From assembly GCA_026419785.1 (NCBI GenBank), contig JAODTK010002087.1, positions 186,001 through 250,000 of the forward strand: a DNA stretch of 64,000 nt. Reading direction: 5' to 3'. Under the pieces are notes generated by a model that worked only from the letters and a program-made list of their open reading frames with translations, was not told where the DNA came from and made no database searches. Of the stretch, positions 3,001-61,400 are shown in pieces (position 1 is the stretch's first letter; each line of letters starts with the position of its first letter). Origin of the DNA: Sclerodactyla briareus. Taxonomy: Eukaryota; Echinodermata; Holothuroidea; Dendrochirotida; Sclerodactylidae. A program made the position numbers and the translations under genes.

Positions 3001-5740
3001 ATTTGTAATCCCCACCTTTTGACCCTTGGAATGGTTGCATCACTTTACCATGTGCATCATACAATCTCACTGTCTCAGTGAAATGACGGACCCCCCCTTC
3101 CCAAAAATGTTGACTTAACTGCCTGAAAGTACCCACCAAATATTACCCTGGATTTACCTCTGGCTGGCCACCCTCTCGTCGTCTGGCTTCAATGAGTCTT
3201 TCTGATAGAAGGGCTCTAATTAAAAAATGACGGTACCAACACTTGAAAGTGACCGTCTCCTATGATGCGCAAATTCAGGTTATGGACAACAGCAAGCAGG
3301 CAAACACTGTGGCCGGATCACGGGGCGAGTAGGATTCCGCCGATACGGCCAAACTGATTTTTCATACCCAGGAAACTGTTATGCTCCCTGTAGTTTAGTA
3401 TTCTGTGTTTGTTTTTTGTTTTTTTCGTCCGAACTTTCTGGAGGATAAACACATATGAACCATTCTAAATATCTTGAAAACATACTCTATTCTCGCGGCC
3501 ATCAATGGGCTCAATGACAGTGATATAACATGGTGTGGCACTGGCCAACTGTGTTGTGGCATACTGAAAGGCTTTGTTTCCCACCCTTTTTTTACCAAGT
3601 ACCATGTGCTTCGAGTTTGGGTATAATCTATGATGAAAGCCTCATTTGGCGGACTGCATGGTAACCACTGTGAGGCTAAAATTCTGACCGACAACTAATC
3701 AGGGCCTTGTTGTGATATAGGATTTATCCGATTGAACCAATGACACAACACGTTTTACCACCAACGTTGAATTGATTACATTTGTTGAACGTTGATGTTA
3801 ATTTTGCAGAAAATTCCCTAGTGACTTTGACAGAAAAATAATTCAAAATTCGGAGATGTTTACCACAATTAGAATTGATATAGCCTGGCAATATCCTCAG
3901 GGTTGGTAAGGGGAAGGCCATGCAGTTTATATTTTATGCGTTTCGTATCAATTTTGTTGAGTGTAAATGTTAGAGGATTTATTTCTTATGTAATGTAAAA
4001 CTCATTTAAGGAAATTCACTTGCGCTCCCTCAGTGATTTCAGGGACTTGTGTTATTATTATTGTAAGAATATAGCGATTTTTGGGCAGATTAGCAACGGA
4101 CCTACCAAAATTACCAACGTAAAGTGATGATCCATGACGCACTCATTCCTCCGAGTTGTGACGGACATCTGGCAGAAAGTGACGGTAATCCTGCATCCTA
4201 AATTCCTGGTAATGACGCTACAACAATCACCACCTCCCCCGGGGGCCTTGGGGTGGGGGTTACAATTGAAAGAGTTCTGCATAATGAACTCAAAGTGTCA
4301 AGCCGATTCATTGTACCGAATCACAGAACAACATAATTAATTAATTAATTGCGAAAATACAAAATTCACTTGCATCTGGCAAAAACCACCATCTAGACTG
4401 AAGTATACATGATAAACAAATCACCAAGCAGCAAATCTGGAGCAATTATGTAATTGGCAAGCGACGCTGAAGATGGCGTAAAGACGGAACATTAATAATA
4501 ATAATAAATAAGTTGGTAACAAATAACTATTATAAATACTATTCGATATTCTTACAAAAGAAACGAATCATCACCGCCACATATCACAAACATGTGCCTC
4601 TAAACTACTTTAAGTGAGAAGCGCTGTCGGGGGGGGGGGGGGGGGAACCGTTAGCAAAACGGAACGTCTCCTCCATACTCAATTCTTCTCAGCAGACTCC
4701 ATTACAGCATGTCTGGGGCTTGCCATTCACTAATGATTAAGCAGCGTTTATCCGACTCGAACTCAATTTTTTTCTCTTCCCAGTCCTGTTCACCTCTCCC
4801 TGCATTTGACTTATCTACACCATCTTTTGGCCAGAAAGCAGCATGCCTCACTTGGAAAATATTCCTTGTAAAATCGGCTATACAGATTTTTTTGTCGGAA
4901 CATTGTTATAGTTTCGTTGCTGTGGGTTAAAATTTTTTGGACCATGCCACGTTCAACACAGTCGGTTGTCCATTTAAAAATTCAAAGTGGTACCCCGGAT
5001 TCGGGTACCAGACAACAGCTTGCATCTGCTAAATCAGAAAGGCAAAAGCTGAATTTGTCCATGTATCCTGCGTCGTGCTTGGTCAATGATGATATATCTA
5101 CCACTCCTGTCTGCTTATTCCAAGTTTTGAACATCTTGCACAGCGAAATACCATAAAAAGGAACAGAATGAAGAATATGGTTTTTGGCTTTCGTTTGAAT
5201 CTTAGGTCTGTAAATGAATGACCTCCACTTGAACCTCATATATTTGCACTGGCCCCGACACAATCATATAGCATTGCATGCTTACATAAAAAACAATCTT
5301 CACTATATACAGTGACATCACATTGATGGATCACAATACTGTATTCATGGATAATTCAGCATTTTGCCTGCAGTTTTCTGAAATTCATCCGGCTGCAGGC
5401 TGTTTTCTGGTTACCGGAATCATAAATCCACTTCAATTTTTTGACTGGACACGGAATGTGTTGGCCTGCTTTTTTCCAAAAATTCCGAGCTGTTTTTTTT
5501 ACAAAGCAGATTTCCAGGTGAGGCAGCTGTTTTTCTGCAAAGATGGTTAGATAAGCTCAAATTTGGAGTTTTGAGTCAGATACTGGTTTTTTGAGAGCAT
5601 GGAGAGGCGACCATGCCCTAAAGAAAACAAGGGACAATCATTAGCCCACACCAGCATTTAACGTACCCACAAAATCGAACTATTCATGTGTAGGCGGGTA
5701 AACCGCCCCTGTGTAGTCCCCCGCTTCTGAGCAATCATTG
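1..5740. other. No gene recognised; 5' flank of the window
   Basis: I see no exon with recognisable homology on either strand; the open frames here are short and of random composition. Visible landmarks are a long G tract near 932-946, another near 4628-4645, and two copies of the palindrome TTTGAATATTCAAA near 777 and 1858. Words such as 'aggcctac' recur between 370 and 770. The stretch may be intergenic or hold the promoter side of the carboxyltransferase gene that starts near 6.7 kb, but no promoter element can be assigned. Confidence 0.5.
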
Positions 5741-5744
5741 GGAA

Positions 5745-6325
5745 GAATTATCTAACAACCCATAAAAACCCCCATTTTGGTCAAGAAACCAAGATAACTT
5801 CATCCAACCAAGTTTTTGTTGTAATCCATGGAAGTTAATAGCACATGCATCAGCAATTGACCCCCGAGTGGTGCCGATAGCTTTGAAATGACGTCTAACT
5901 TTGTTGAGGAACAAATGTAGCCCCCATCTATCCAAGTTTCGTTAAAATCGCAAAGTTTGGAAATTCGCATAATTTTCGCAATTTGACCTCCGATGACCTT
6001 GACATGACCTCCCCATTTTTCGGGACCAACGATAGCCCTACCCACAGTTTTTCGTCCAATCTGAATGAATTTGGGGGAAAATCGCCTAAATTTCGCAAAT
6101 TTGCCTCCGATACCTAGAATGACCTCCACATTTTTCGGGACCAACTATAGTCCTACCCCCAAGTTTCGTTCATATCGGACAAAGTTTTTGAAAATCGCAT
6201 AAATTCATACAAATTGACCTCTGATGACCGTTGAAAATGACCTTCCACATTTTTCGGGATCACTATAGTCCCTTACCCACCAAAGTTTCATTCAAATTCA
6301 ACTGCTTGACCAATTCGCGTAAATT
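5745..6325. repeat. ~115-bp tandem repeat, 4-5 diverged units
   Basis: The phrase 'catttttcgggaccaac' or a close variant recurs near 6014, 6129 and 6247, each followed by 'atag.cctaccc' and 'gtttcgt' and then 'aaatcgc.taaatt'. Spacing is about 115 bp. One or two more diverged units precede them from about 5750. Each unit contains 'tgacct' words like those of the larger satellite families further along the window, but the sequence is otherwise different. Confidence 0.7.
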
Positions 6326-6740
6326 ATGCAAATAAGCCGGCCTCAGCATTGCAGTGATGCCCACTTCTTAACTCATCCGAGATTTTACTACCTGGCGGAC
6401 ATGTGTGCTTCAGTTTTGGATAATCGGAAAGTGTTTAAGAGTTATTGCGCTAACGCTAAAGTTTTCCGTCCGGCGGCGGAGCCGGTACGGCGGCAGCGGC
6501 TACCCCCAAAACCATAATATCCCCGAACACTTCCAGTGTCTGCGGGGATATAATTACAATCAAACTGCCAACGCAGAGTCGAAGAAAGGGTCCCAGGCAG
6601 ATAGTTTTGTATGGAGCCTCCAGTTTCCGATAACTTGGGGTCCTATAACAAGTACCTGTATGGTAATGTCCTTGCAAGAATAAAACCAAGACTGTTTTTC
6701 AAACTCTTTCTACCTTTTACATCATGTTTTCCTGCCTCAG

Positions 6741-7108
6741 TGGATGAAGCATCGCTTCGCAAGAAGCTGGAGGGATCTCCCAATGATCCGTCAGGCCTCG
6801 GGACTGCCTACACCACGGGCTCCTTCGACAGCGATGTTCAAAGAGCTAGATGGGACCATGGACCCATTCCACCCTGCTCTGTCCACACGGACGACACAAC
6901 AACCGGGCTGCCAAGGAGGTCGTGAAGCTCTGAACAGGATTCGTCAAGGGGGCAGCGAGGCAGCGCACAGGAGGCACTCCGTCAAGAACAACAAGCTCTT
7001 TGCGAGAGATAGGATGAGAAAGCTATTGGACCCAGGCACAAGAGGAAGACTGTCTGGAAATAGCACCGTTTGCTGGAATGGGGATGGAGTATGGTGATAT
7101 CCCGGCTA
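6741..7108 (+). CDS. MCCC2-like: MCCC2-like exon 1 (N-terminal domain start)
   Basis: The exon follows an acceptor-like 'cctgcctcag' and reads [12 protein letters not shown], then, after frame changes, an HTDDT segment, [19 protein letters not shown] and [18 protein letters not shown], ending in [17 protein letters not shown]. Known MCC beta subunits have the same order: substrate-side helix, RGKLLPRERID-like Arg/Lys block, then the phenylalanine-rich stretch before the first catalytic motif. The upstream part is rich in Arg and Ser and could be a mitochondrial presequence beginning at the Met near 6744, but an earlier exon is equally possible. At least three single-base indels are needed to keep one frame. 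The donor near 7108 is approximate. Confidence 0.75.
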
Positions 7109-10100
7109 GCGGAGCTGTGTCATTAAATATCCTAGATTATTTTTTGATAATAATAAAATAATAAGAAAATTAAACAATGATCAATGGTCTAGCTTGGTGT
7201 TGAACAGCAGACAACACTATAATCAACTGTGGAGCACTATGGGCAGCAGGAAACAATAAAATTGACTGTTACTGACGCTGACGAAACAGCAGGCAGCACT
7301 ATAATTAACTGTAGTGACGCTGACAGAACAGCAGGCAACACTGTAGTGACACTGACAGAAGTCAATACTATGATAAACTGTACAGGTGCTAACGGAACAA
7401 CACCGTTATAAACTGTAGGTGCAAGCATAACATCAGGCAACACTATAATCAACTGTAGTGATGCTGACAGAACAGCAGTCAACCCTATAATAAACTGTTG
7501 AGGTGCTAGCAGAACTTCAGGCAACACTGTAAATCTGTAATACACTGTAGACATCAGTGTTTCTGCTATAAGTCACTATGACGTGATTTTGACGCAGTGA
7601 ACTATCAATTTGACGCAGTGGCATTCTGAGAGCAAGGGTTTAAAAAGAGGATTTTAATTCAAAATTACATTAAAAAAAATATAGCCCTAGACGTAAACTT
7701 GACTCACTCAAATTTTGAAAGTTCGCGAAAAATGGCAGTTTTGACTAGCTTGCTAATTTTTTTAGAGGAAACACTGGTAGACATGCTAACAGACAAGTAG
7801 GCAACACTATTTAACTGTCGAGGTGCAAGCATATCATTCAGCTGACAACCCAGGCAATCTCCTGCAAATAGCCTGATCCTAATGATTACCTAACTGCTGA
7901 AAGAATCATCACATATTTCTCAATGTTCACCCCTGACTTTTCCTTTTACCTCAATATTTTTTTTTTTCCATAGTGATTGGACGTGTTCACAACAAGTGGT
8001 GTTCTGTTGGTTGTAATGATGCCACAGTTAAAGGAGGGACCAGCTATCCAATCACAGTGCAGAAACAGCTGAGGGTGCAAGACATCGCTCTACAGAACCG
8101 CCTGCCAGTGATCTATGGCGTCGACAGTGGTGGCGCTTTCCTTCCACTTCAGGTGTGTGTATTGGCTCCGTTGGACATTAACCTCACATTTCACAAAGTT
8201 TGAGGTAAGGTAACAGTATATGCAGACAAAAGATGTGATTATGGTATCAAAGTTCCATTCAGCCTTCAATTCATGTCCTTCCTGTCTGTCCAGACCCGGT
8301 ATTCTAAATGTGCACCCCCAGTTTCCTTCTGGATGTAAATGACTTTTTCATAATTTGTTCCAGTGCATCTCTATTGTTACATGCATAGCCTAATTTTATT
8401 TTTGGGCTGGTTGAACAGGTAACGATTGCTCGCCTTGACTTGGTGATGAAGGCTGTGCTGGAAGATGTTGCATTTTAGAATGACTGTCCATGCTGCATTA
8501 TCAGGATTCAAATTGTAAAATGAAGCAAATGCTGATAAGGTGAGCTTAGATGACACCTTTTAGGAGTTCTTCACTTCCTGTGGGAGATTACGCTAGCCAC
8601 CACACTAGTTAATGTATTACATTCATATATATACGAAGCAACATTGACTGAGCGATCAAACTTTTTTCTTTTTTTGAAAATTAAACCAAATCCTTGTTGT
8701 CTATTTAACTTTGAACCTAATATTAAACTAATTAGTGTATTAAATTATTTTCTTTAAATTTTTCAATTGAAAGACATTCGGTATTTTCAATGTCAACGTT
8801 GTTACTCTCACCAGAATATAGATCTCGTTGGTGGTGCGCTATAGTACAAAATCTCAAATATTGCAGAGACGGTGACTTATTGCAACCTCATAACTGGCTG
8901 TATTTGTTCTCAAGTTTTGGAATAGGAGAGTTCATGCAAGAATAAAAAAAAGAAAAAGAAAAAAAGAATTGTAAAGTGGTATCAGTGACACTATACATAG
9001 CAAACATTCCAGGTTGGAAATCCAGCAGACACTGGAGTTTTACCTAGGTGCCGCTGTACTACAATGCGCGTCATGGGCGAGGTATTGGTCGTCACACCAT
9101 AGTTCCGATAGAAACCCTTGCCGTATTGGAGGTGGATGAGCACCGGCGATAACACGCCTTCCCTCACAATATAGTGCTCAGATGATACTGAGACAGGGGT
9201 GTAAACCAATCACAACCTGCTCCCGGACCCGCCATTTTACGTCCTCATCCGAAAAGAACTATCAGTGGTCTCCAGGACCCGACCACTTTCTCGGAACCTG
9301 GAGGAGCAGAAGTTCATGTTCAATGTGAATGCTCAAAGCCGACAGACGAGACTTATTGCAAATATCCCGTAACAAAGCCCAGAACCCCAGAAAATCCACT
9401 GCATCACAGCGGAACAAGGAAGTGAAGAAGACCTCGCCCGTCGCAACTACAGCATTCGAAATAGCTGGTGTAACATCGCGAAATGCTCCGTAAATGAGCA
9501 AGATTGCTACACACTTTTGGATGTGCATAGCTTTCAGTGTGTACACCCAAACAATAGACAGCATACATGTTTTCTATAATCCTCTCCAAATTGCTACACA
9601 AGTGCTTGGCACTATTTCAAACGCTGCGCAACTACAAGTACAGCCACTAGGGGAAAATGTCCGGTGACAGCTGGATTTCAAACCGGAATATTCGTTTTGT
9701 AAAGTGTCACTGATGCCACTCTACCATTCTTCGGAACAAATTGTGTGGGGCCGGGGGGATGTTGCTGAAAATTTAGGGTTGTCCTAATTTTGAATATTAT
9801 CCCTTGTCTGTGTTAATTTCAGGCAGACATTTTTCCGGACAGGCGACACGGAGGGCGAGTATTCTACAATGAAGCAGTTCTTTCATCATTGGGCATTCCG
9901 CAGGTAGGGGTCAGTTTGTTTGTGTATTCTCATGTCAACATGGATTAACAGAGGATAAAGTGAAAATGATGATTGAATGACTTTGTAACATTCACATTTG
10001 TAGGATACATAGATTCATCTTGCTATGAAATTCAAGAGTGGGGTGTGGTTTTGCTATCTGGAATATTGCACAATATTAATACACTGAAATGCATTGAGCT

Positions 10101-13100
10101 CATATTATAACAAATGTTATCTTTTGTCAGAATTGCTACAATGTACTGCTAGTGGGGTATATGTACCGTTGGGGCTTGTCTCAGATTATAAGGATGGTTT
10201 TGCTTTCTGGGGCATATTGCCCAACATGGCTTGCCTCAGAGCTTGAAAAAAATGTTTCCATTTCTTCATGAAGCTACATGTACATTTATGTACCTTAATG
10301 CTATGGGGCTCATGTCAATTGGCTCATCTCATATCAATCAATGCATCTAAGGCGTCATCATGCTGATAGTGTGTGGTTCAGTACTCCTAGTGGGGCATGC
10401 GTAACATTGCGTTTGTCCCTGTCAAAACGAATGGTTTCCTATTCTTTATACAGTTACAATGTGTGGTTCTTGTACTGCTTACGTGGGAATATGTTCAGTT
10501 GGGGCTTGTCCACTCTAACCCATGTTCGGCTGTTATGTGAATCTTCATTGGCTGAGTAGCTAATGTGCACTGCAGGGTTTATGTACCATAGTGGTGACTC
10601 TTATCTTCAGATTGCTATAGTGTGTGGCTCATATACAAAGCTGTTGGCCATAGTAACCATATTCTTCATATTGCTACGGTGTGGTGGCTCATATACAGCT
10701 GGGGGACTTATGTACCAATATTCTTCAGATTGCTATGGCGTGTGGCTCATATACAGCTGGGTGTACTTATGTATCATATTCTTCAGATGCTATGGTGTGT
10801 GGCGCATATACAGCTGAGGACTTATGTCCGATATTCTTCAATTGCTAGGTGTGTGGCTAATATTACAGCGGTGGACTTATTATCATATTCTCAATGCTAT
10901 GGTGTGTGGCTCATATACAGCTGGTGGGACTTATGAGCATATTCTTCAGATTGCTATGTTGTGTGGCTCATATACAGGTGGTGGGACATATGTCCATATT
11001 CTTCAATGCTATGGTATGTGGCTCATATACAGCTGGTGGGACTATGTACTACTCTCAGATTGCTACGGTGTGGGCTCATATACTACGCTGAAGGGACTCA
11101 ATTTACCATAGTCTTCAGATTGCTTCGGTGTGTGGCTCATATACAGTTGGTGGGAACATTGTCCATTTTCTTCAGATTGCTATGGTGGTTTGCTCCTTAC
11201 ATCTGCGGGACATAGTAGTACCATTTATTCTTCATATTGCTATGTGTGTGGCGCATGTACAGTTGTGGCGAGACTATGTACCTATTCTTCAGATGCTATT
11301 ATGTGTGCTCCTAACAGCAAAGGGACTTATGTCCATATCTTCATTGCTATGGTGTGTGTCTCATATACAGCTGTTGCCATATGTACCATATTCTTCATAT
11401 TGCTATGTGTGTATCTCATATGCAGCTGGTGGGACTTATGTTCATATTCTTCGATTGCTATGGTGTTGTGGCTCCTCGACGCTGTGGGACATGTACCATA
11501 TTCTTCAGATTGCTACGGTGTGTGGCTCATATACAGCGAAGGCTTATGTACATATTCCTTCAGATTGCTATGGTGTGTGTGCTAAAATACCGCTGTGGCT
11601 TATGGGGATCATATGCTTTCAGAATGCTATGGTGTGTGGCTCATATACAGGTGGTGGGACTTATGTACCATTTCTTCAGATTGCTATGGCGTGTGGCTCA
11701 TATACAGCTGGTGGGACCTTATGTACCATATTCTTCAGATTGCTATGGTATTTGCTCATATCCGCTGGTGGGACATATGTACTATATTCTTCAGATTGCA
11801 GGTGTGTGGCTCATATACTACAGCTGGGGGACTTATGTCCATATTCTTCAGATTGGCTATGGGATTTGGCCATATACATCTGGTTGGACATATGTACCAT
11901 ATTCTCAGATTGCTACGGTGTGTTGCCTTCATATACTACAGGCGAAGGACATGTACCATATTCTTCAGATTCTATGGTGTGTTGCTTCATATACGCTTGT
12001 GGACTTATGTACCATATTCTTCAATTGCCATGGTGTGGTGGCTCATATACAGCTGGTTGGACATATTTACGTACCATTTTATTCTTACAGATTGCTATGG
12101 TGGTGGCTCATTCAGCTTGGCGATACATATTACCATTTCTTCAGATTGCTATGATGTGTGGCTCATATAAAGCATAGGGACTTATGTACCATATTCTTCA
12201 GATTGCTATGTGTGTGGCTCATATACAGCTGTGGGGCATATGTACCATATTCTTCAGATTGCTATTGTGTGTTGCTCTAAAAGCTGTTGGGACTATTTAT
12301 CATATTCTTCAGATTGCTATGGCGTGTGGCTCATATACACTTTGGACTTATGTACCATATCTTCAGATTGCTATTGGGGTGTGGCTCATGACGCTGGGGG
12401 CTCTGTACCATATTCTTCCGATTGCTATGGTGTGTGGCTCATATCAAGCAGAAGGACTTCTGTACCGATATTCTTCAATTGCTATGGTGTGTGGCTCATA
12501 TACCGCTGGTGGGACCTATGTACCATATTCTTCAGATTTGCTCTATGGTGTGTGGCTCATATACAGTTGGTGGGACCTATGTACCATATTCTTCAGATTG
12601 CTTAGGTGTGTGGCTCATATCCAGCCTGGTGGGACTTTTAACTCATATTCTTCAGATTGCTATGTTGTGTGGCTCATATACAGCGGTGGGACATATGTAC
12701 CATATTCTTCAAGATTGCTATGGTGTGTTGCTCATATACAGCTGGTGGAACTTATGTACGTACCATTTCTTCTTCAGATTGCTATGGTGTGTGGCTCATT
12801 TACAGCTCGGCGGGACATAGTCCCAATTCTTCAGCTTGCTATGGTGTGTGGCTCATTTACTCTGTTGGTACAGGGAATATGTAACCATATTCTTCATATT
12901 GCTATGGTGTGTGGCTCATATACAGGTGGTGGGACATATGTATCATATTTCCTTCGATTGCTATGTGTGTGGCTCATATGCAGCTAGTGGGACTTATGCG
13001 CCACTCTTCTTCAGTTTGCTATGGTGTGTGGCTAATATACAGCGGTGGGACATATGTACCATATTCTGCCGATTGCTTCGGTTGTGGCTATATACAGTGG

Positions 13101-16100
13101 GGGGACTTAGGTACCATAGTCTTCAGATTACTAAGGTTGTGTGGCTCTATACAGCTGGTGGGACATTGGTACATATTCGTCAGATTGCTATGTTGTGTGG
13201 CTCATATACATCTGTTGGACATATGTTCCATATTCTTCAGATTGCTACGGTGTGTGGCTCATAACAGCTGGTTGGACATATGTACCATATTCTTCAATTG
13301 GCACGTGTGTGTGGCTCATTAACTTATGACCATATTCTGCAGATATCTATGGTGTGTGGCGCGTGTAGCTGATGGTGGGACTTATTACCGGTAACGAGTG
13401 TCTTCTATTCTACAGATTGCTATAGTGTGTGGCTCTGTACAGCTGGCGGGGCATACGTACCGACTATGGCAGAGGAACTTGATCCTTGACAATCTGGCAC
13501 CATTTTTCTTGTGGGCCACCCCTGGTGTTCGCTGCAACGGGCGAGGAAGTCACGTGCTTGAGAACTTGGGTGTTGCAACGCTACACTGTCAAGTATGTAA
13601 CTCTCCTTTGCAGGTCACGCTCATGTCAATATCAGCCTGTAGTTCAAGGCTGCAGTCTGAATTTACTGCTGTAATACCCCTGGCCCGCGCAGGCATGATA
13701 CAGTAATTTATACAATGCCCGTAGTTTCAACATGATTCAATTGGCTGCAGCAAAACTGTACAAAGTGGGCGTGTCATTCATCTTTTCATCCATGGAGGTA
13801 TTGGTTATTCCAGCCTTGTATCAACTTGAAAATAAATCCAATTGGGGATAAAAAAGTGGTAACAGTTCCCATGTGGAATACCGGTCTTGTTTCTTATCAA
13901 GTGCAAAATAGCAGCATTCACTGTGTATAGTTTATAGAACCCATGCTCTCCCCCTCCTCCCTCCTGTGACATCAAACATCCCTCTAGCTTCTCAGAAGTG
14001 AATTGAAATCCCTTCAAAGGACAACTGGAGGCTTGGATACAAAAGAGATTACGAATGGAAACGTCTCCATGGTCGAACCATCTCAATACGATGTTCCTAT
14101 GGTGGAGTTATTAGCCTCAATGTTTGGTCCATAATGCAGAGAAATTATGGTCATAGGCTACATCACACTTGGACCACCCAGGAAGTTATGTTAAGTATTT
14201 CATTGTTTCACTTTTGTTGCTGAGTATTGTGCACATTTAGCAGAAGTTCTGTGTCTTTCTCTCACCAAAGTAACCATCCAACTCCTACCACCCACTACGC
14301 AATCCTCGCCATAAACTAAATGCTTTTCAAAGTGAAAATAATGTGTGAATTCCAATGGAAAACAAGATTGTTTGCAGGGTTGTGCAAGTAGGACATCATT
14401 TTTTGCATGAGGGGATGCTCTCTATTTGCACAATACACATGGCATAAACTTTTTTTCACGAACTGTAACTCTGTACAAAATTGTATGAACTTTGGGCTTG
14501 GACTGATGCAATATGTTTTTCTCCATGTTATATATTAGCCTCTTTATAATTCATCTGCAGTTGTCCTTTAATTACAGGAGAAGCAACATGCTGGAACCTC
14601 CTTGTATGGGGTGTTGGGTTTTGAGATTTCCTCCTTTCACCTTTCCTGGTTCAACGAAAGTCTTGTTACAGCAGGAAGTTTAAGCCATCATTTAGGACTG
14701 TGGGTAATAGAGGAGTATAAATGCTGTAAATGCAGGGTATGCAGACTCAAAATCACATTCTTTCAGTGACATTAGAGGCCAATGGTCCTACAAATTTGAT
14801 TGACCTTAGGAACTTTCTGTTCATTACATTATGGCAGCCAACCCCCGACGAATTCAGCTGATCGGTGCGCCGTGAGGCATCCAAAAAAAAACAGAATCAC
14901 TATTGCACATTTAGGCTGTGACAACACAGGGGGAACCGTGGGATCCCCAGTAATACAAACTCATGGAAAAAGTGAACTCCTGAAAACCCTACAACAAACA
15001 AACTATAGGGGATCTGGAGAAAAAAGTCACCAACTCGTTCACAAGATATTACAGAATAATCTCAATATTTATATTGTAATACCTATTTTCATCTCTTTGT
15101 TATGGTGAAAAAATGCAGCATTTACCATGTAGAGTCGATGGGTGGCTTTGTGTCATTCCCCTGTGATTTCACGATTCCCAAAACAATTGGAATAACTTGA
15201 CATGGCAAGATGGTAGAATCCCCAAATTTGGAGTGTGGGGTTTTGACATGTCCACCTTCCCACCTGGTGCTAGTTTGAAGGAAAATCTGTTACATGACCA
15301 TTGGCCTTAATATTGGTTTTTCCTTCACAGGGTTAGCGGCTGCACCGACCCATTTTGCTTGTTCCGAGGACGAGGCCTGGCAGCTTGGCAGAGATATTGT
15401 TGCAACTTTGAATGTAAACCCCCCTGAGGACCCCACTACCTGGGAGGAACCATTGTATGACAATCATGAACTAAGTATGCTGGCACCAACCCCTATGATC
15501 CCAGCTCATACTCTGTCAAAAAGGTCAGTTATTCTGCTGCTGCATACCTTGTATGCCAGAATCTGCAGGGACCCCTGCTATTTATATGTTACCTTAAAAT
15601 CATAGTCTGTGTGATTTCTAATCTCTGGTTGGGTGCTGATTGATCGTAACCTCAGAATCAGGTTGGTTGCCTTGATATCATAGTCTGTACTTCTTTTTTA
15701 ATCCTGGTTCTCGCTTTAGGTAAAACCACAATACAAGACAGATCTATGCTCTAGGATTTGGGACCCTGTAGTAGTTCTACAAATATGAGAATACTAAAAA
15801 CAGTTATAGACTATGTATGGTGATGTTGCAATCACATGTGAGACGACAAGGCTTGTCATCCTCATGAGGGAGCGATCATGGATCAAGTGATTGTGACCAA
15901 TTCAAGCAGTTATTATCATATGTCATTTTGCCATTCCCCAGATTCTTGCCAGGATAGTGGACGCAGTAGAATGCATGAATTCAAGGCGTTATTTTGGACC
16001 AAGCCTCGTCACTGGATTCTCCTTTATAAAGGGGTGAGAATTTCTTTTGAATGCCCTATATGTATTCATTGAAATCATTTTCCTGTCCGTCAAAATCCCC

Positions 16101-40408: not shown

Positions 40409-43400
40409 GGGATGATGACAAGCAAAAAATTATATACTTTGAATGGAGTGAATACTCTCCCAATCTTAAAGGAGATAATTGTAACAATTCTGAGAATGAT
40501 ATGAAACATAAGATACAATGCACAAAACTGCATGTACCAGAGTGATGATTACTGTTTGCACTATGGAGCTTTCTTCTAAATAGTCACATATTTGCATGTA
40601 TTGCTGCCAGGGTTCATGATAAGCGGGGGCCAAGGGGCTATTAGCCCCCTAAACTACATGAATAACCCCAGGTCCTATTGTATAAATGTATAAGCCAGGG
40701 GCTATTGAGTATTGAGGGGGGGGGGGAATAGCCCCTGGCCTTTAATTAGTCACATTTGGGTACGCCTAACTAATAAATGCAGCAAGCACTATTCATAGTT
40801 GTTGGCAGACTGGGGACACTTTAGCATATGTAGTAATGCGTGTGAGCTTTACAGCCTCTGGGGTTGATTTTCTCATTGAAGCATGTTCATCTCAATGCAG
40901 AAGCTGAGATACGGATCAGAGCCCCTGGTCCTACCAAAATAACCCCTGGTCCAACCAGAAGTCAACGAACCAGGGGCTCTCTCTTTTGAAAATTTATACC
41001 TGGACTCTGATCCCTCATTTCGATCCTGATAGGGCCTACTTATCCACACTGTTTATTATACATGTCTGCATGCAATGTCCATGGCCCAAGGAACATGATA
41101 AGAAGAATCTCAGAGAAGCTCAAGCCTTCTTTATGCTATTATGTAAGGGCAGCATTCCTTCGCCTCAAATAGGAATTCACAAACCATGCCCATTTCATTT
41201 TTTTCCGTTTTTTGGCAAATATTTGTGTGGGTGCAACTAGTAGACAATGACCAGAAGGATAGGATGTTGATTCTGTTTCTTACCAGGTGTGAGTGAAGTA
41301 GGGCTGTTGAAATGTACATTAGGTTCAGCTCTGGTACTCAATAATTCTTCCTCTCCTGTCTTCTGTTGCTTGGCAAAGCCGATGAACAACTAAAATGAGG
41401 AAAATCAACAAACAGGCACAGGTTATACACACAATATATGACTCCATTCTATTTAGGTTTATGACATTGCTGAAGCAGTGCTTCTCATAGAAGCTCTTGA
41501 CCACTGTGAGCAAGAATCAACAGCATTCAGGAAAATGTTTACTGCCAATGGAACAGGGGGTTACGGCAGAATTTGAGCAATCATGTCCATGACTTCCATA
41601 ACTATTTCATGACCAAATATAGGATTTCCATGACCTTCTCGATGACATCCTCGCACCGATTTTCAACTGAACATCTAGAAAAGAGCCAAAGTAACAACAT
41701 TAAACAGTCTGTGAGGAAGTAACAACTTCATGAAAATTTCCATGACTCCAAAATTTCCATAACTCAACAACTTTCCACTGAATTTCAAAACTTATCCAGC
41801 CCTGGATTTCTATGATGAAATTCATGACTTTTGCAGGTTTTCCATGAAGGCGGAACACTGATGGGCCTCACACAGATGAGTGAAGGTTTGCGCATGCAGT
41901 CACGTGTGGAGAGTGAAAGGGTGCTGTGAGTCACTCAGGATGAATGGAGGTTTAAGATTTGAGAACGGAAAGCTCTAAGATGCAACCAATATACAGGACT
42001 ATAATACAATCCCAATACAAGCAGGTTCTTCGATCCACTTCTCAAGCCTAGTATGCCACAAATTCCTGATGTAAAATAGATGTATTACAGCACTCCCAAG
42101 AGAATAAAATTCCATGATATTTCTATGATGAAATTTCAGGATGGAAACGCTTACTTATTTTCATTCCAGACAGCTTGGAAAGCCACCTTAGGCAATCAAT
42201 TCTCCCAGTCTATCTTTGGCCAATCAAATTCCATGACTCTTTTCAGGATTTAAAGCATTTCAAATTCCATGACTTTGATCAAGCAAAGAGGTCAGGATAT
42301 GCTAGCTTGATCAAAGCAAAGAGGTCATGATATGCTAGTTTGATCAAAGCAAAGAGGTCATGATATGCTAGCCCGATCAGAGCAAAGAGGTCATGATATG
42401 CTAGCTTGATCCAAGCAAAGAGGTCAGGATATGCTAGCTGATCCAAGCAAAGAGGTCGTGATATGGTATTTGATTCAAAGCAAAGAGGTTATGATATGCT
42501 AGCTTGATCAAAGCAAGAGGTCAGGATATGCTAGCTTGATCAAAGCAAAGAGGTCAGGATATGCTAGCTTGATCAAAGCAAAGAGGTCAGGATATGCTAG
42601 CTTGATCAAAGCAAAGAGGTCATGATATGCTAGCCCGATCAGAGCAAAGAGGTCAGGATATGCTAGCTTGATCCAAGCAAAGAGGTCAGGATATGCTAGC
42701 TTGATCCAAGCAAAGAGGTCGTGATATGGTATTTGATCAAAGCAAAGAGTCATGATATGCTAGCTTGATCAAAGCAAGAGGTCAGGATATGCTAGCTTGA
42801 TCCAAGCAAAGAGGTCAGGATATGCTAGCTTGATCAAAGCAAGAGTCATGATATGCTAGCTTGATCAAAGCAAAGAGGTCATGATATGCTAGCCCGATCA
42901 GAGCAAAGAGGTCAGGATATGCTAGCTTGATCCAAGCAAAGAGGTCAGGATATGCTAGCTTGATCAAAGCAAAGAGGTTATGATATGCTAGCTTGATCAA
43001 AGCAAAGAGGTCATGATATGCTAGCTTGATCAAAGCAAAGAGGGCAGGATACGCTAGCTTGATCAAAGCAAAGAGGTTATGATATGCTAGCTTGATCCAA
43101 GCAAAGAGGTCAGGATATGCTAGCTTGATCAAAGCAAAGAGGTCAGGATACGCTAGCTTGATCAAAGGCAAAGAGGTCAGGATATGCTAGCTGATCAAAG
43201 CAAAGAGGTCAGGATATGCTAGCTTGATCAAAGGAAAGAGGTCAGGCTATGCTAGCCTAATCTGCTGGCATGCAGAGCAGTTTGTGATCATCTTACCTGA
43301 TCTAAGGTGGTCTGGCTCAGTGAGTAGTCTGTTACGCCCAGCTGCCTCCTGTTAGCCTCCATGATCCCAAAGAGTCGGAGAGAGCAGTACCCTCTGTCGG

Positions 43401-46400: not shown

Positions 46401-49400
46401 TGCTTAATATGATTGCCCTGCCTAGCGCCTTTGTGGGTGCGGCCTTGATTGTGCAGCGGCCTTGACTACAATAATGCCAAGGCCACACATGTTCCAGCTA
46501 TTCATTCACCTCGTGGAAACTGTAGGTCATACACAAGCAACCCCCAGTTCCTTTATTCAGCATGGCCTGTGCTATGGAAAATACAACTAACCTGTGTGTG
46601 GTCAACACTACAGGCCTTTCTTCATTCAGCATGATATAAGCTAGGGAATATAATAACCTGTGTGTGGTTGGTCAACACCACAGACCTTCATTCTGCTGTA
46701 GAATATACTAACCTGTGTGTGGTCAACACTACAGACCTTCCTTCCTTCACAATGCTAGTGATACAATTCCACAGGAACCGTCTAGACTTCGGATCCATGC
46801 CAGTGGTAGGTTCATCCTGTCAAACAAAAACAGTTTGATAACTTCACTTCTGGAACAGGAACCCTGGTTAAAGTTCTTGTGAACTTGAGAAGAAACAGCG
46901 ATATAGCTAGCCAAATGTCACTGAGAGGCACAACTAATGCAGCCAAGTAACTAATCATCTCATCTGGCACACGCTATCAAACATCCACTTCAAACGGAAG
47001 TTCAGAGCCTTTGAACTACCACATTTGTGCCACTCATCGAAAGTATTAACCCTTATATCCCGATATTTCCCCAATTCCAAAGGATGCCATTATTTCACTT
47101 GTTGGTAAGAACTCCGTCACATGAACTGAACAACCTCAAGAACTATTGCCCGGTTTTTAACATATCCTACTTGTCAATAGTTATCGATAAAAAACACAAT
47201 CAGCTGGATAAATACTGATCATGACCTTTTTAGTAAACCATACAATTCTACAAGTCATGCCACTACACGAGAGACGACTACCATGACAAAGGTAAAAGAT
47301 GACTTTTGATCATTTGAGCAGGCGTATTCTTAGACCCGAATTGCACCCTTCTGGCATGGATTGGTTCATGTAGGAGCAGATAGGCCAGGGAAGTTCACTA
47401 TAAACAGTACACCATAAGCACTCAGTAAACTTGGACACTGACTCCTGCAAGGAGCTATTGTTGGTCTTTCGATCTTCGATCTGTACACTCATTCAACTGT
47501 TCACATTATCCGCAACTACAAACTCTGATAGACGGCTGACATAAGAACGATACTTCCATCACAACTGCCTTAGCCCGGCTCTCCTTGTTATTGCTCCAAT
47601 AGAATCCTGGATGACCCAGAACATGTTCAATCTTATTGAAAATTGATGCAAATTACTCCACCTAATTAGCAAAATTCAAATCATTCAACTACTGTCCTGT
47701 ACCTATGTGCCAAACCACTTCCACCACACCACTTATGCTTGCTATTGCACTCAAGACAATAGGCCTATTACCTACATAGCGACATTCATGCCCAATATGT
47801 AATCAGATCAGTTCACTCAACGCTTCAGTCTTGTAGAGATTCAGGCATACCCTACAGAAAAATATTTATTGGTACTCACCAAGAAAGACTACTGGTGGAT
47901 TACCAACGAGAGCAATGGCAGTTGAAAGCTTCCTCTTGTTTCCCCGCTGTAGGTACCAGCGAGCTATCAGCAGATTTGGATAGCCCCAGCTTCTGTATGC
48001 CCCAATCAGCGACCTGCAAAACAAAACAATATAATATATTGAGCTTCTTCAGCCTTTGAAATGTTCAAGAAAATTTTACCATGTCAGGGTGGCATGAAGA
48101 CTTACCTGTTAAGGTACTCCCTCGTCAGAGATGCACAGAACTGAAGATTTCTACTATATCAGGGTACTATGCAGACTTACCCTGTGAGGGGTACTCTTTC
48201 AGAGAGGCACCAGAAACTGAAGTTTCTTATATCAGGGTACTAAAGCGACTTACCCTGTGAGGTACTCCCTTCAAGAGATACACAGAAACTGAAGAGATTT
48301 TCTACTATATCAGGGTTACTATGCAGGACTTACCCTGGTGAGGTTACTCCCTAGAGATGCACAGAACTGAAGATTTCTACTATATCAGGGTATAAGCCGA
48401 CTGACCTGTGAGGTGTACTCCCTTAGAGATGCACAGAACGGAAGATTTCTACTATATCAGGGTAGCATGACGACTCTTTAGGGTAACTCTGATGGTACTC
48501 CGTCAGAGATGCCAGAACTGAAGATTTCACTATATCAGGGGGGTAACCATGAAGACGAACCCTGTAAGGAAACTCTGATGGCACTCCCTTCAGAGAATAC
48601 ACAGGAAGTGGACGATTCTTACTATATCAGGGTACTATTCCACCGTACCCGGTTAAGGTACTACCTTCAGAGATGCACAGGACTGAAGATGTCTATCATA
48701 TCAGGGGACCATGAAGACTCTGTTGAGGTACTCTGATGGTACTCCTCTCAGGGGAGGCATAAAATTTAGATGCTCGGCCAGTGAGTAGGTCATCCAGTGC
48801 ATTCAAATTGAGGCAAGTAACCCGATACTATGGTTGACTTTCCGAATTGGTTTGTGATGCTGTTCTGTAGGGTGACTGATGGCAATCGCCAAGTTACGTA
48901 GATATCCCCTGTCACAAATCTTGAAGTGGGTGTCTTCCCAGCTCATTGACGCACCAGAAACCAAAACACTAAGGAGATAATCGATGATAACGCTTTTGTG
49001 TGTCCAGTTGTAAACTCTCGAACAAGGAAAAAAGTGACGAAACGTGGAATAGTGGAACAAATGGTTTCGCGACAATAGGTTTCCTGGTCTCATGATCAGT
49101 GGTTGTTCCAGTTGAGGTATTTAGGGTGCTCCAACCATCCTGACCAAAAAAAAAGTGGATAGATAAGGATTTGCTGATAGCAGATAATAACAGCAGCTCA
49201 ATCATCGTCATAGAGGAGGGGGTAGCTTGGTTGCCAGTCTCCAAGTACTGTTATATGAATGGCACAAGCCAGGACTAAAGCAGCCCCCTTTTATTAGACT
49301 GATTGGACCATGTCAACTGTAATGAGTGAAACCACGAATGAATGTGGCAAACCAGTTTTTAGCGGCAGTGAAGTCATCTTACCTTGAAACTTATCTTAGG

Positions 49401-55400: not shown

Positions 55401-58400
55401 TGTGCTTTATTCTATTGTCTATAATAAAGGTTTGGAGAGGCAAGCTATGGTATTGCTCATCCACGGGTTAGTGGAGTTAGAGTCGTAAGTAGAGGGTCCT
55501 CTCATTAGATTGCCGTGCTACGAGCTGATGTACCTTGTGTATATTCAATACCATTCAACATATTACCAGGGCCAGAAATAAAGTGCCTGTGCCGTTATAT
55601 ATATATATCGTGTGTCTGGAAAAACCATCCTATTGGAGCTCAACGAGGGTCCCTATTGAAGGGATAATATTGGCATAACATTTATGGGAACAGTCCCGGG
55701 ACGTTGTGGCATTTTTAGGAGGGAAACGAAAGAAACAGAACGGAAAACAGAACGGAAAACAGAACGTTGAACAGTCGCAGAAAATATGCTGAAACAATTT
55801 TGAAAGAAGTTTTGAACAATTTATTATCGAAGGTGATGGAAAATAACGATTATCGCACAAATATGTCGGAAAGCAGTTGAACCTTATATGAGAACGAGGC
55901 TGGAAGATGGAAAGTCGGTTTGATGTGATCTGGATTAAGGCAAGATGAACGAAACGGCGAAGTGACAGAATGTGACAGGATTGAGAGGAGAATTAAGAAT
56001 AAATTAAAAGAGTCGATTTAGGAACACACTCTAACGTTAAATCACAAAAAAACTTGGCCAGTAATAGTAATGGTAAATTTCATTCAGATAAGTAGATTTA
56101 TCCGTTAAGGCAATATTTATGTAATGCCGCGTCTATAATTAATTTATTCTTGCTCTAAATAGTAAACTATATCAAGGTGCAGTAAATCAGTAAGCTCTGT
56201 CCCTTCATCAATAGTATAAGCGTAAGTCGGACCAAGACGATTTACCATCACCGTGACAGAAAACCCAACATTGTTGCAGGCAAGAAGGAGGAAAGAACCA
56301 GAAAGCCAAAAGGCTAGGTGATTTCTTGACTCTTTTTCAAAACATAAGCCAGAACACACGGACAAAGTGGGATTGCACCAGCTCATTATGGAACCTAGAA
56401 CGTCTGACAAATTCCCATTTTCCCCAACCCCAACCAACATAGGGCTCCTAACTCGTGATAAGGAAGCTACCCAATAAATTTCAGCTTTTCAGGACTATGA
56501 CCTCTGGTGATTCTCAAATGAACTCTGACATGACCAAAAACCAAAAAACAATAGTGGTTTAAATGTTACTCATCATGGGGAACTCACATACCAAGCATGA
56601 GTTCATCCATCTGGGTGGAGACGAGTTATCGTGTGTACAAGTCAAAAATTGTCAAAATATCACTTTTCACAAATTTCATATTATTGAAAAAAAATCACCT
56701 TCGACCGACCAAAAACAATAGGGTTTCTGTACTCCCCATAAGTAAAGGCTACACACGACATTTCATCCTGATCTGACCAACAATTCTGGGACGATTGTGG
56801 ATTACAAGGTTTCCAGACTTGACCTCGGTTGACCTCGATGACTCTGACTGACCCAAAACAGTGGGGTTCATGTACTCTCATTAGGAATACATTACCAATA
56901 TGCGCTTCATCCATCCGGTTGGTTGGAGTTATCGTGTTTACAAGCCAAAAATTACCAAAATATTGAATTCACAATTTTTCTATTTCGACCAAAATTCACC
57001 CCGAACGGAACAAAATATAGGGTTCTTTTATACCCATAAGAAAGCTATACACCGATTTCAATCTAATCGGACCAAACCATTCTGGACTTGGCGGGTTGGT
57101 TTACAGGTTTCACACTTGGACCTCTGATGACCTCTATATGACTTCTGACCTGACCCAAAATAATAGGGTTCATGAAATCATCATGGGAAACACACCAAAA
57201 CGAGAATGAGCTTCATCCATCAGTGGGGGTTGAGTAATCGTGTGTACAAGCCAAAATTGGCCAAAACTATAAAACTTTTCTCTATTCTCCTATTTTTGAC
57301 CAAAATTCACCCGACTGACACAAAAACAGTTAGGGTTCCGTGTACTATCCATAAGAAAGCTATACACTAAATTTCAACTTGTTTGACCACCAACCCTTTC
57401 GGGGACTTTGCATTGTTTAACAAAGTTTTCCGACGTCTTGACCTCTGTTGACCTTAGATGACCTCTGACCTGACCCAAAAACAATGGGTTCATGTACTTA
57501 TCATTGGGGAACACAACAAACCAAGTAGCAGCTTCATCATCCAGGTGGGTTTGAGTTGGATCGTGTTTGTTTACAATGCCAATAAATTGGCCAAAACATC
57601 GAATTTCACAAATTTTCATTTTCAACCATAATTCCTCCCGACCTGAACCAAAAACATAGGGTTCTGCTACTCCCCATAAGAAGATATACACTAAATTTCA
57701 ACTTGTTTAGACCAACCTTTCTGCACTTGCATGTTACAAAGTTTTCCGACTTTGACCTATGTTGACCTAGAGGACCTCTGACCTGGCCCAAACAATAGGG
57801 TTCATGTTACATCTCATGTGGAACACACATATCAAGTATGAGATCATCTATCTAGGTGGGGTTAGAGTTATGTGTGTACAAGCCAAAATTGGCCAGGAAA
57901 ATCAACTTTCCCAATTTTTCTCTTTGGACCAAATTCACCCGACCCTGGACCAAGAAAACCAAATAGGGGTTCCTGTATTCCCCATAAGAAAGCTATACAC
58001 CAAATTTCAACTTGATCAACCAACCATGCTGGACTTAGCGTGTTTACAGTTTGCAGAACTTTGACCTCTGCTGACCTCAATGACCGCAAATGACCTCTGA
58101 CCTGACCCCTAAACAATAGGGTCATGTAATCATCATGGGGCACACACCATGCCAAGTATGGCTTCATCAATTCCAGGTGGGTCGAGTATCATGTGGACAA
58201 GCCAAATTGCCAAAATATGACTTTTCACACATTTCTATTTTTGACCAAAATTCACCCCCGACCAGAACCGAAAACCATAAGGGTTCTGTACTCCCCATAA
58301 GAAAACTATGCACCAACTTCACTGATCAGGACCAAACCAGTATGGGACTTAGCATGTTACAAGGGTTTTCAGACTTTGACTATGTTGACCTCAGATGACC

Positions 58401-61400
58401 TCTGACCTTACCCCAAACGATAGGGTTCATATACTCATCATGGGGAACACAAATACAAGTATGAGCTTCATCCATCCAGGTGGGGTAGAGTTATCGTGTT
58501 TACAGCCAACAAATTGGCCAAAAAAAATTGACTTTCCACAAATTTTCTATTTTTGACCGAAATCCACCCCTGACCTGAACCAAAACCAATAGGGTTCCTG
58601 TACTCCAATAAGAAAGCTAGACACCAAAATTCAACTTGATCTGACACCACCATTCTGGACTTAAAGTCGTTTACAAGGTTTTCGGACTTTGACCTCTAGG
58701 GACCTCGAATGACCTCTGACCTGACCAAAAAAAACAATGGGATCAGGTACTATCATGGGGAACATAATATCAAGTCATTGAGTCTGATCTAATCAGACCT
58801 GATCAAGTTATCGTGTTACAACTGGGCGTCACACACACAAACATACATACCACACACACACACAGCACACGCGCATTCTAAGCACACACACAACCACCAC
58901 CACCCACGACGTGATGCCTAGATTCCGCTGACTTCGTCAAGGAATAAAAATGTTACAGTTATTTGAATGTCTAATAACATAATCAAAATTGGGTGGGTAA
59001 GAGAGGGGTTTGACTTGTGGGCAGCTGATACAGCACAATTGTACAGGAGATATGGTTTACTCATGCTTATTCGAACAGCGCGATCATAGTGATGGGAAAT
59101 TCATCAAATTCATGAACAGCAAACACATAGATTCAGAAAATGTTAATGGGGACCATATAATGAGTTTGGCCCAAAAATTCTTACCAAGTTTGAAAATTGA
59201 ATATATGATGCAAATTAGGCACATACAATGACCTATATTGACCCCAGCTTACTTTCGAAATGATCTGGATCAAAGGTGGATCACATCTACCAAGGTTTTT
59301 TTTTTTTTTGTGGAAATCCAACAAAACTCAAGATGTGCAATAAAATAGGCAAACTAGACACATTAAATGCCCAGGACACACGACTTCACAGTAAAATGGG
59401 AACCATGTAGACCACATCACAAGTTTTTGTGGAAAATCTGAACAAACTTGGAAAAAAATTTGCAATAAAGTACGCAAAGTAGACCACGTCTTAGAATATT
59501 TAGGCTGAAAATCTAATCAGTGTATCACCTGTATCCAGGTCTACATGCCAAACTAACACTGTAGCCATACGGTTTTTGCGTAATCGTTGCTAACGAGGCT
59601 TTAACCGAATCAATAAAATAAGCTATTATCCAACTTCTAAATCTAATCAGATTTCGTCATAGTTCATTCATTAACGGCCTCACGGTTTGTGAGAAATCTG
59701 CTTACGAGAAAGTGTGACATTACACACACACACACAGGAAACACACGCCACAGTGACCCACTAGTCTCTTCATGAATTTCATTCAGGCGAGACCGCGAAA
59801 ACCACAATGCTGCATTGAGAGCGTGGTTTTTGTAACAGCATCAATATTTCAAGGACCAGAGAGATCCCTGTATAGAGCATTTATATCTCAAGTCACCAGA
59901 AGATTTAACAAACATACCGGACCTGCAGTAGGATCCAAAGACCTTAAACTCAATGAGCAGAGTAAGTAAGTGTGAGAAGACCAAGCCTTTACGGCCAGAG
60001 CTGCCGGTGGGGTTACGACCCTGCTGATTCCCAATCCACGCGGGGTTTGGGCATCCGTGTCGCATGTAGGTACAGACTAACCAAACCATTCTATTTACAT
60101 TTACTGACATGGTTGCATCGGCCAAAACATTCAATATTAGGAGAGTTTTTTTTCATCTTGAGATACTGTTTAAGGAAGGCCTTCCAAGAATATCACTAGT
60201 CAACATCTCCATATCAATTGGCACCAACCTGTATTTCCCACACTTGCTGTGTGCGAAATGTTAAACGTACAAACAACATTAACAAGCATGTTTTTTCCCA
60301 CCCAAGTTTCACACAAACATTCCCAACATTCCACGGAAGGAATTATCTTTTGAAAAAATCTCACCATCTATATCAGAAAAAAATTCCCCAGGGCCATTCA
60401 CATAGGCAACATGCGAAAAAAAATTAATTTCATAGGGGAACTTTTGTAACAGTCAATAGAGCAAGCCAGAAAGAAAAACAAGCTTATTTCAAATCATTTG
60501 TGGGTGTATCGCCAATAGGGTCTGATGGTCGTTCTTGGTACTCTACGTCACATAAACGTGCAGAAATTCTGATGGAAATCTGATTTTTCCAACTCAAATC
60601 AATTATTGGGTTTTTGGCCCAATATGCGTTCCAGGAACCTAGCATCAACTATTCATCAGTAGGCTGAATTATGGTGATTGAAAAAAACGCTTCAGTGAGG
60701 TGAAACATCGGATTTCAATCGGAAATTCTGCGATTTCAAGAAGTAGAATGCCAAGAACAAAATTTCAGGATTTGGTGGCGATACACTCCAAATTTCTGGC
60801 TAGCCCTCCATCCAGTAGTAAGTGATTAATAACCAGGGGGTTGTTGAATGGGACTCTTGTTTCTAGCATAGGTTCTCGTTATCAAAAAATATTACACGTG
60901 GAATATGACAATGACATTCAGACACAATGACGTCATCAAGTCCACATTTTAAGGAAAATGGAAGTCCAATTTCAGACAAGAAAAAACATATGTTGAAGCT
61001 CAAACCCCCCACTTGAAAACATTCACATCAATGTGTTTATATAAATTACCAGAGACATGAAAATACAAAATAAATCAATAATAAAAATACCTGCAATATG
61101 GAACTTCTCAAAGCGGCTTTGTAGGAAGTGATGTTTGCCAGGTTCACGAGCCCTTCCCCAAGGCAGAACGGAGGAAAGAGTCGGAATCCTCTGGGTGGCA
61201 TTGTTCAGTGGATCCAGGACTGTGAGAGAGATACATCCAGATTACTTGAAAACAGTGGTAAAAACCTGCATATAGAACCTTCTCTGACACCATGGACAAG
61301 GTGGTCATTGTAAGGTCATAGGTGATACACAGGTGAACTGTGGAGTGAGTCACTGAAAAGCTCATAGGAGATGCACAGGGGACTGGGATGATCATGAAAG

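Follow-up and report, generated by a model that had tools for sequence, protein, structure and literature searches.

The 64,000-nucleotide stretch analyzed here (contig JAODTK010002087.1, positions 186,001 to 250,000; hereafter the window) carries two neighboring genes in which exon edges are bordered by tandem arrays. Judging from its protein matches, the plus-strand gene encodes a carboxyltransferase resembling methylcrotonoyl-CoA carboxylase beta (MCCC2), and its intron at 9904-13415 holds a large array that copies the leading edge of the following exon together with its acceptor. This array is very probably a mirage, that is, a splice junction duplicated locally, expanded as a minisatellite and removed with the intron. 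The available part of PMC3087553 describes mirages in lancelets as minisatellite-like tandem duplications across an exon-intron boundary in the globin genes BflGb6 and BflGb9 and in Adh3. The second gene, on the minus strand, is of the ABCA transporter type (PDB ABCA1 match, E 2e-7). The features of the plus-strand gene are as follows.

7974..8152, plus strand: exon of the MCCC2-like gene (Pfam Carboxyl_trans, E 2.1e-9; PDB matches)
9823..9903, plus strand: exon preceding the array, 27 amino acids, donor GTAGGG at 9904 (recognized by eye; no Pfam match of its own; no edge duplication)
10084..10595, plus strand: probable decayed older units (tile z scores, suggestive)
10601..13404, plus strand: very probable 3'-splice-site mirage of 49 units of about 58 bp (alignment, shuffles, assembly-wide search)
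13405..13415, plus strand: genuine acceptor CTATTCTACAG, continuing the register of the array (wrap-around alignment)
13416..13592, plus strand: source exon of the array, donor GTATGT at 13593 (recognized by eye; no Carboxyl_trans match of its own)
15331..16033, plus strand: two further exons (15331-15523 and 15942-16033) and the intron between them (recognized by eye; no Pfam match; no edge duplication)

In PDB, the exon at 7974-8152 matched a carboxyl transferase domain protein best (9yx0, E 5.6e-21), followed by methylcrotonoyl-CoA carboxylase beta (8j4z, E 1.7e-20). Scans of the 64-kb window for Rfam families (gathering score) and for tRNAs returned nothing.

Tandem Repeats Finder (TRF) reported an array of period 57 with 47.5 copies at 10604-13319, and wrap-around alignment of 10596-13480 to the tandem consensus resolved 49 units of about 58 bp at 10601-13404. 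The original prediction had the unit length right; its count of about 47 copies becomes 49 by alignment, and the exon starts at 13416, one base later than it implied. Each unit consists of ATATTCTTCAG, 11 nt of acceptor, followed by 47 nt matching the first 47 nt of exon 13416-13592. The register that follows unit 49 (13405-13462) is the genuine exon edge itself, so that the array runs into the exon in register. Consensus and exon share the same base in 49 of 57 aligned columns, and the local score of unit against exon (72) far exceeded the maximum of 27 among 1000 dinucleotide shuffles (z 23.8). The proposal that an exon's leading edge, including its acceptor, had been tandemly amplified was thereby borne out, with an identity well above that of shuffled sequence. 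Identity of individual units to the exon ranged from 75 to 91% (mean, 82%), and comparison of the unit with three other exons of the MCCC2-like gene revealed no likeness (z -0.8, 0.4 and -0.3). As a reservation, the AG is intact in only 34 of the 49 units. An assembly-wide search (319,486,128 bases in 3171 contigs), which leaves out very common words and confines scoring to the best candidates, reported 27 matches, all within the array and its exon edge; within these limits, the array was not seen at unrelated loci, an outcome that would have told against the amplification of this exon.

The direction of derivation can be read from the protein. Exon 13416-13592 retains CTAGGAYVP as in solved relatives in PDB, and the array consensus reads differently there. 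The loss from the consensus of conserved residues that the exon keeps indicates that the exon is the source and the array the derived side, and that the exon was not made from the array. Older copies probably lie at its far end. Of eight overlapping 110-bp tiles starting at 10084-10504, seven resembled the unit with z values of 1.1 to 2.7 and the eighth with 0.5, compared with -0.07 on average and at most 1.71 in 60 control tiles; the last upstream tile overlaps the array by 13 bp. These values are suggestive of decayed units in 10084-10595, bordering the array on its 5' side. No trend of unit identity was seen along the 49 units, and the variant in column 50, considered as a link between units, showed no association at p<0.05 with any further column having four or more departures.

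Further cases were found in the neighboring ABCA-type gene, which was traced by tblastn with an ABCA1 probe, the better matches lying in order along the contig. Its features in the window are as follows.

46586..46712, minus strand: third probable mirage, two further copies of the exon end and donor of the 46713 exon (exon-edge z 18.0)
46713..46816, minus strand: ABCA exon, donor GTTAGT (probe match, E 1.7e-13)
48054..48719, minus strand: probable 5'-splice-site mirage, eight further units of about 72 bp with exon end and donor (alignment score)
48720..48800, minus strand: ABCA exon end (LLTGR...), source of the second probable mirage (recognized by eye, two frames)

The exon end at 48720-48800 sits between the probe matches 48942-48802 (E 0.004) and 47943-47875 (E 1.5e-6). 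Its 60-mer scored 33 against the 48054-48719 array, above the maximum of 26 in 1000 shuffles and a value reached by none of 1000 random 60-mers, and GTAAGT occurs at four places in that array. The donor copy adjoining the exon at 48720 reads AACAG/AGTC (boundary at the slash), without GTAAGT, which several later units have; this is either an assembly error or a lost donor. Altogether, three of the 18 exon edges recognized in the 64-kb window are duplicated into the adjoining intron.

Adding 90 kb of flanking contig extended the analysis to 154 kb (positions above 64000 carry on the window coordinates, and the contig position is the value plus 186000). The 25 coding pieces recognized there have 50 edges, several of which are ends of tblastn matches rather than proven boundaries, and five exceeded all of 300 shuffles: the ABCA donors 111035, 108151, 48720 and 46713 and the acceptor at 13416. 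When 22 nt of exon plus 22 nt of intron were used as a donor-junction query, six of nine donors (116652, 111033, 106487, 108151, 46713 and 48720) exceeded all of 400 shuffles; the nine were picked partly for their adjoining arrays, so this proportion is not a frequency. Donors 47880 and 61091 were negative in this test. Donor 113247 was weak (score 25 against a shuffle maximum of 31; z 3.4), and all five of its near-copies in the 154 kb lay within 1.7 kb of it. A 16-mer round the donor had near-copies within 1.7 kb at five of the six positive donors; copies elsewhere (six) outnumbered near ones (two) for donor 46713, and donor 48720 had no near-copy. The exons at 46713, 106487, 108151 and 111033 were matched by the ABCA1 probe, and those at 48720 and 116652 were recognized by eye only. 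The further ABCA donor arrays, at contig positions 290001-310000, have units of 34, 99, 79 and 40 bp, the 79-bp array being 97% uniform, and a 50-bp array in the same interval is a weak case. The window thus contains two more exon edges with arrays (donors 46713 and 48720), and four more, with one weak case, follow further along the contig. This density of arrays is the new part of the finding.

Other tandem arrays do not copy exons. The array at 61299-61772 (a 44-bp unit in 11 copies, the unit containing AGGTGAGT) lies directly upstream, on the minus strand, of the ABCA exon 61091-61240; as a copy of that exon, it was rejected (p 0.45). Likewise rejected as an exon-edge copy was the array at 42275-43256 (z 0.1), a 33-bp unit in 30 copies that are 90% alike, which begins about 40 nt past an ABCA donor. 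Seven 313-bp tandem units occupy 56545-58764 in the region of the ABCA gene, and a 42-bp unit is repeated 60 times at 4394-6868 of another contig (L026). Over the 154 kb, the consensus of five of 15 arrays contained donor hexamers, compared with 1.5 expected; two of the five share one exon edge, another is the array rejected above (61299), and the array at 48099 falls outside the filter (period 25-200, at least 2.5 copies, score at least 150).

From these observations, we infer the following course of events. Slippage or unequal exchange would have produced tandem copies of the intron-exon junction (11 nt of acceptor and 47 nt of exon) immediately ahead of the exon; these would then have grown into a minisatellite and become partly homogenized, a few decayed copies probably being left at the far edge and the genuine exon forming the last register of the array. 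The same process may have acted on the donor ends of several exons of the ABCA-type gene. In the transcript, the array would be part of the intron, and the spliceosome would join donor 9904 to the genuine acceptor at 13405-13415. The decoys would mostly be ignored because the array (10601-13404) contains no GTRAGT donor, because no TTCAG decoy lies less than 300 nt from the exon donor, and because, close to the AG, the pyrimidine tract of the true acceptor is the better one. At -15 to -4, the pyrimidine fraction is 0.83 for the true acceptor and 0.74 on average for the decoys, five of 32 of which reach the true value. Normal splicing past the array is what this analysis suggests. The idea of stepwise (recursive) splicing, which the original prediction had also raised, found no support, given the lack of GTRAGT in the array and the absence of AGGT enrichment (8 in 2.8 kb, compared with 4.45 per kb across 14000-47000).

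Several observations weigh against an expanded junction that is quietly spliced out. Adjacent units did not resemble each other more than units further apart did (lag 1, z 0.4), and only lags 13 and 15 of 24 passed z 2; there is no positive trace of recent unequal exchange, one that assembly errors may mask. A further sample of 80 kb (three stretches of this contig and five of other contigs, genes not identified) yielded a single tandem array that passed the filter, and that array contained no GTRAGT donor. The sample gives no support for a high genome-wide density of such arrays and may argue against it. The remaining observations concern splicing. At -20 to -4, 29 of 32 decoys are at least as pyrimidine-rich as the true acceptor; the ideal tandem consensus is stop-free, as are only 5% of shuffles; and the CTGCAG of the last unit lies about 250 nt ahead of the exon donor, which places one decoy within reach of exon definition.

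These splicing features, together with the AG kept in 34 units, are what favors the alternative of a decoy bank, in which array acceptors are used appreciably, giving isoforms with array-coded peptide or nonsense-mediated decay, and array length tunes expression. We regard this as improbable, since none of the 29 TTCAG acceptors has an open frame (phase 0) to the exon donor as assembled, in sequence that has indel noise, and none lies within 300 nt of that donor. In addition, reverse-transcription polymerase chain reaction data for lancelet globins and data for Adh3 suggest regular splicing there (PMC3087553, in the part available).

It is very unlikely that the array is largely an assembly artefact in which errors of reads or assembly at a single exon edge pass for copies. 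The region does show signs of such errors. As assembled, exon 13416-13592 carries five frame switches (counted by eye) and an exon of the ABCA-type gene at least two, and exons 7974-8152, 9823-9903 and 46713-46816 are in a single frame throughout; the switches in conserved exons of both genes therefore point to indel errors, or decay, in places of the assembly. The scatter of units around the consensus also consists mostly of rare variants, and the TRF match is only 77% in the 10604-13319 array, 77-82% at 48099 and 76% at 115204. However, eight columns of the consensus carry a substitution relative to the exon, and at seven of these the exon base occurs in just 0 to 4 of the 49 units; the exon-edge arrays at 105909, 107369, 107940 and 110769 are 91-97% uniform; and probable decayed copies flank the array. 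The copy number of the array may still be wrong. Scarcely credible is a dispersed satellite or Introner-like mobile element with exon-like sequence by chance, since, for all that Introners are reported in 5% of species searched (PMC9860276, in the part available), the assembly-wide search, within its limits, did not return the copies at many unrelated genes that characterize Introners, its matches being confined to this array and exon edge, and every further array copies its own exon edge.

An expanded and spliced-out junction thus remains our reading of the array at 10601-13404. A broader and tentative idea, which we consider doubtful as yet, is that a recurrent process amplifies splice junctions specifically, having acted on six ABCA donors, perhaps a seventh, and one acceptor of the neighboring gene, each with its own minisatellite. 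Were this true, a junction-linked trigger might be involved, such as breaks at exon edges tied to transcription or R-loops. With a host other than a lancelet, it would also be, within the literature searched, the first such case beyond the cephalochordates. Mirages alone would make a lancelet host likely; family searches for GFP (its control genomes were likewise without a match), COX1 and class III ADH returned nothing, and as class III ADH is expected in nearly all animals, searches of this type seem to be insensitive to split genes. No genome-wide survey of mirages and no case outside lancelets was recognized in our literature searches, in which most papers were judged by their listing. The mirages in print come from a small number of lancelet genes, and their copy numbers are mostly low (PMC3087553, PMC3902484, in the parts available). 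A contig with about seven array-bearing exon edges in two neighboring genes makes it testable why junctions are favored for tandem duplication and how the spliceosome passes over dozens of near-perfect copies of its sites; it would also allow a test of the published model of new introns arising from mirages (PMC3087553).

The original prediction knew of no described family of such elements, which has to be corrected, since lancelet mirages, as presented in the available parts of PMC3087553 and PMC3902484, are exactly that, with splicing apparently undisturbed. As in the mirages of PMC3087553, the unit described here spans an exon-intron boundary including the splice site, the array adjoins the authentic boundary in its own gene, in register with it, both boundary types are affected (acceptor 13416; donors 48720 and 46713), and the unit of about 58 bp is of minisatellite size (10-72 bp in Adh3, 150-160 bp in the globins). 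The closest counterpart in structure is BflGb6, the units of which comprise the 3' end of an intron and the 5' part of exon 2. BflGb6 has six and three units in two haplotypes, of 150-160 bp and 81-100% identity, whereas the present array has 49 units of about 58 bp that are more diverged, and several exons of one gene are affected. In the lancelet PGBD5 and troponin C genes, imperfect tandem repeats lie over 5' and 3' splice sites, and within PGBD5 more than one exon is affected; its repeats of 60 bp are present in two or seven copies and those of 108 bp in three or six, depending on the assembly (PMC3902484), whereas the copy number here reaches 49. Tandem genomic duplication within a gene has also been proposed as a source of introns (PMC4974935, in the part available). 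Both phenomena take place within a gene, but there a new intron arises, whereas here the copies lie in an existing one.

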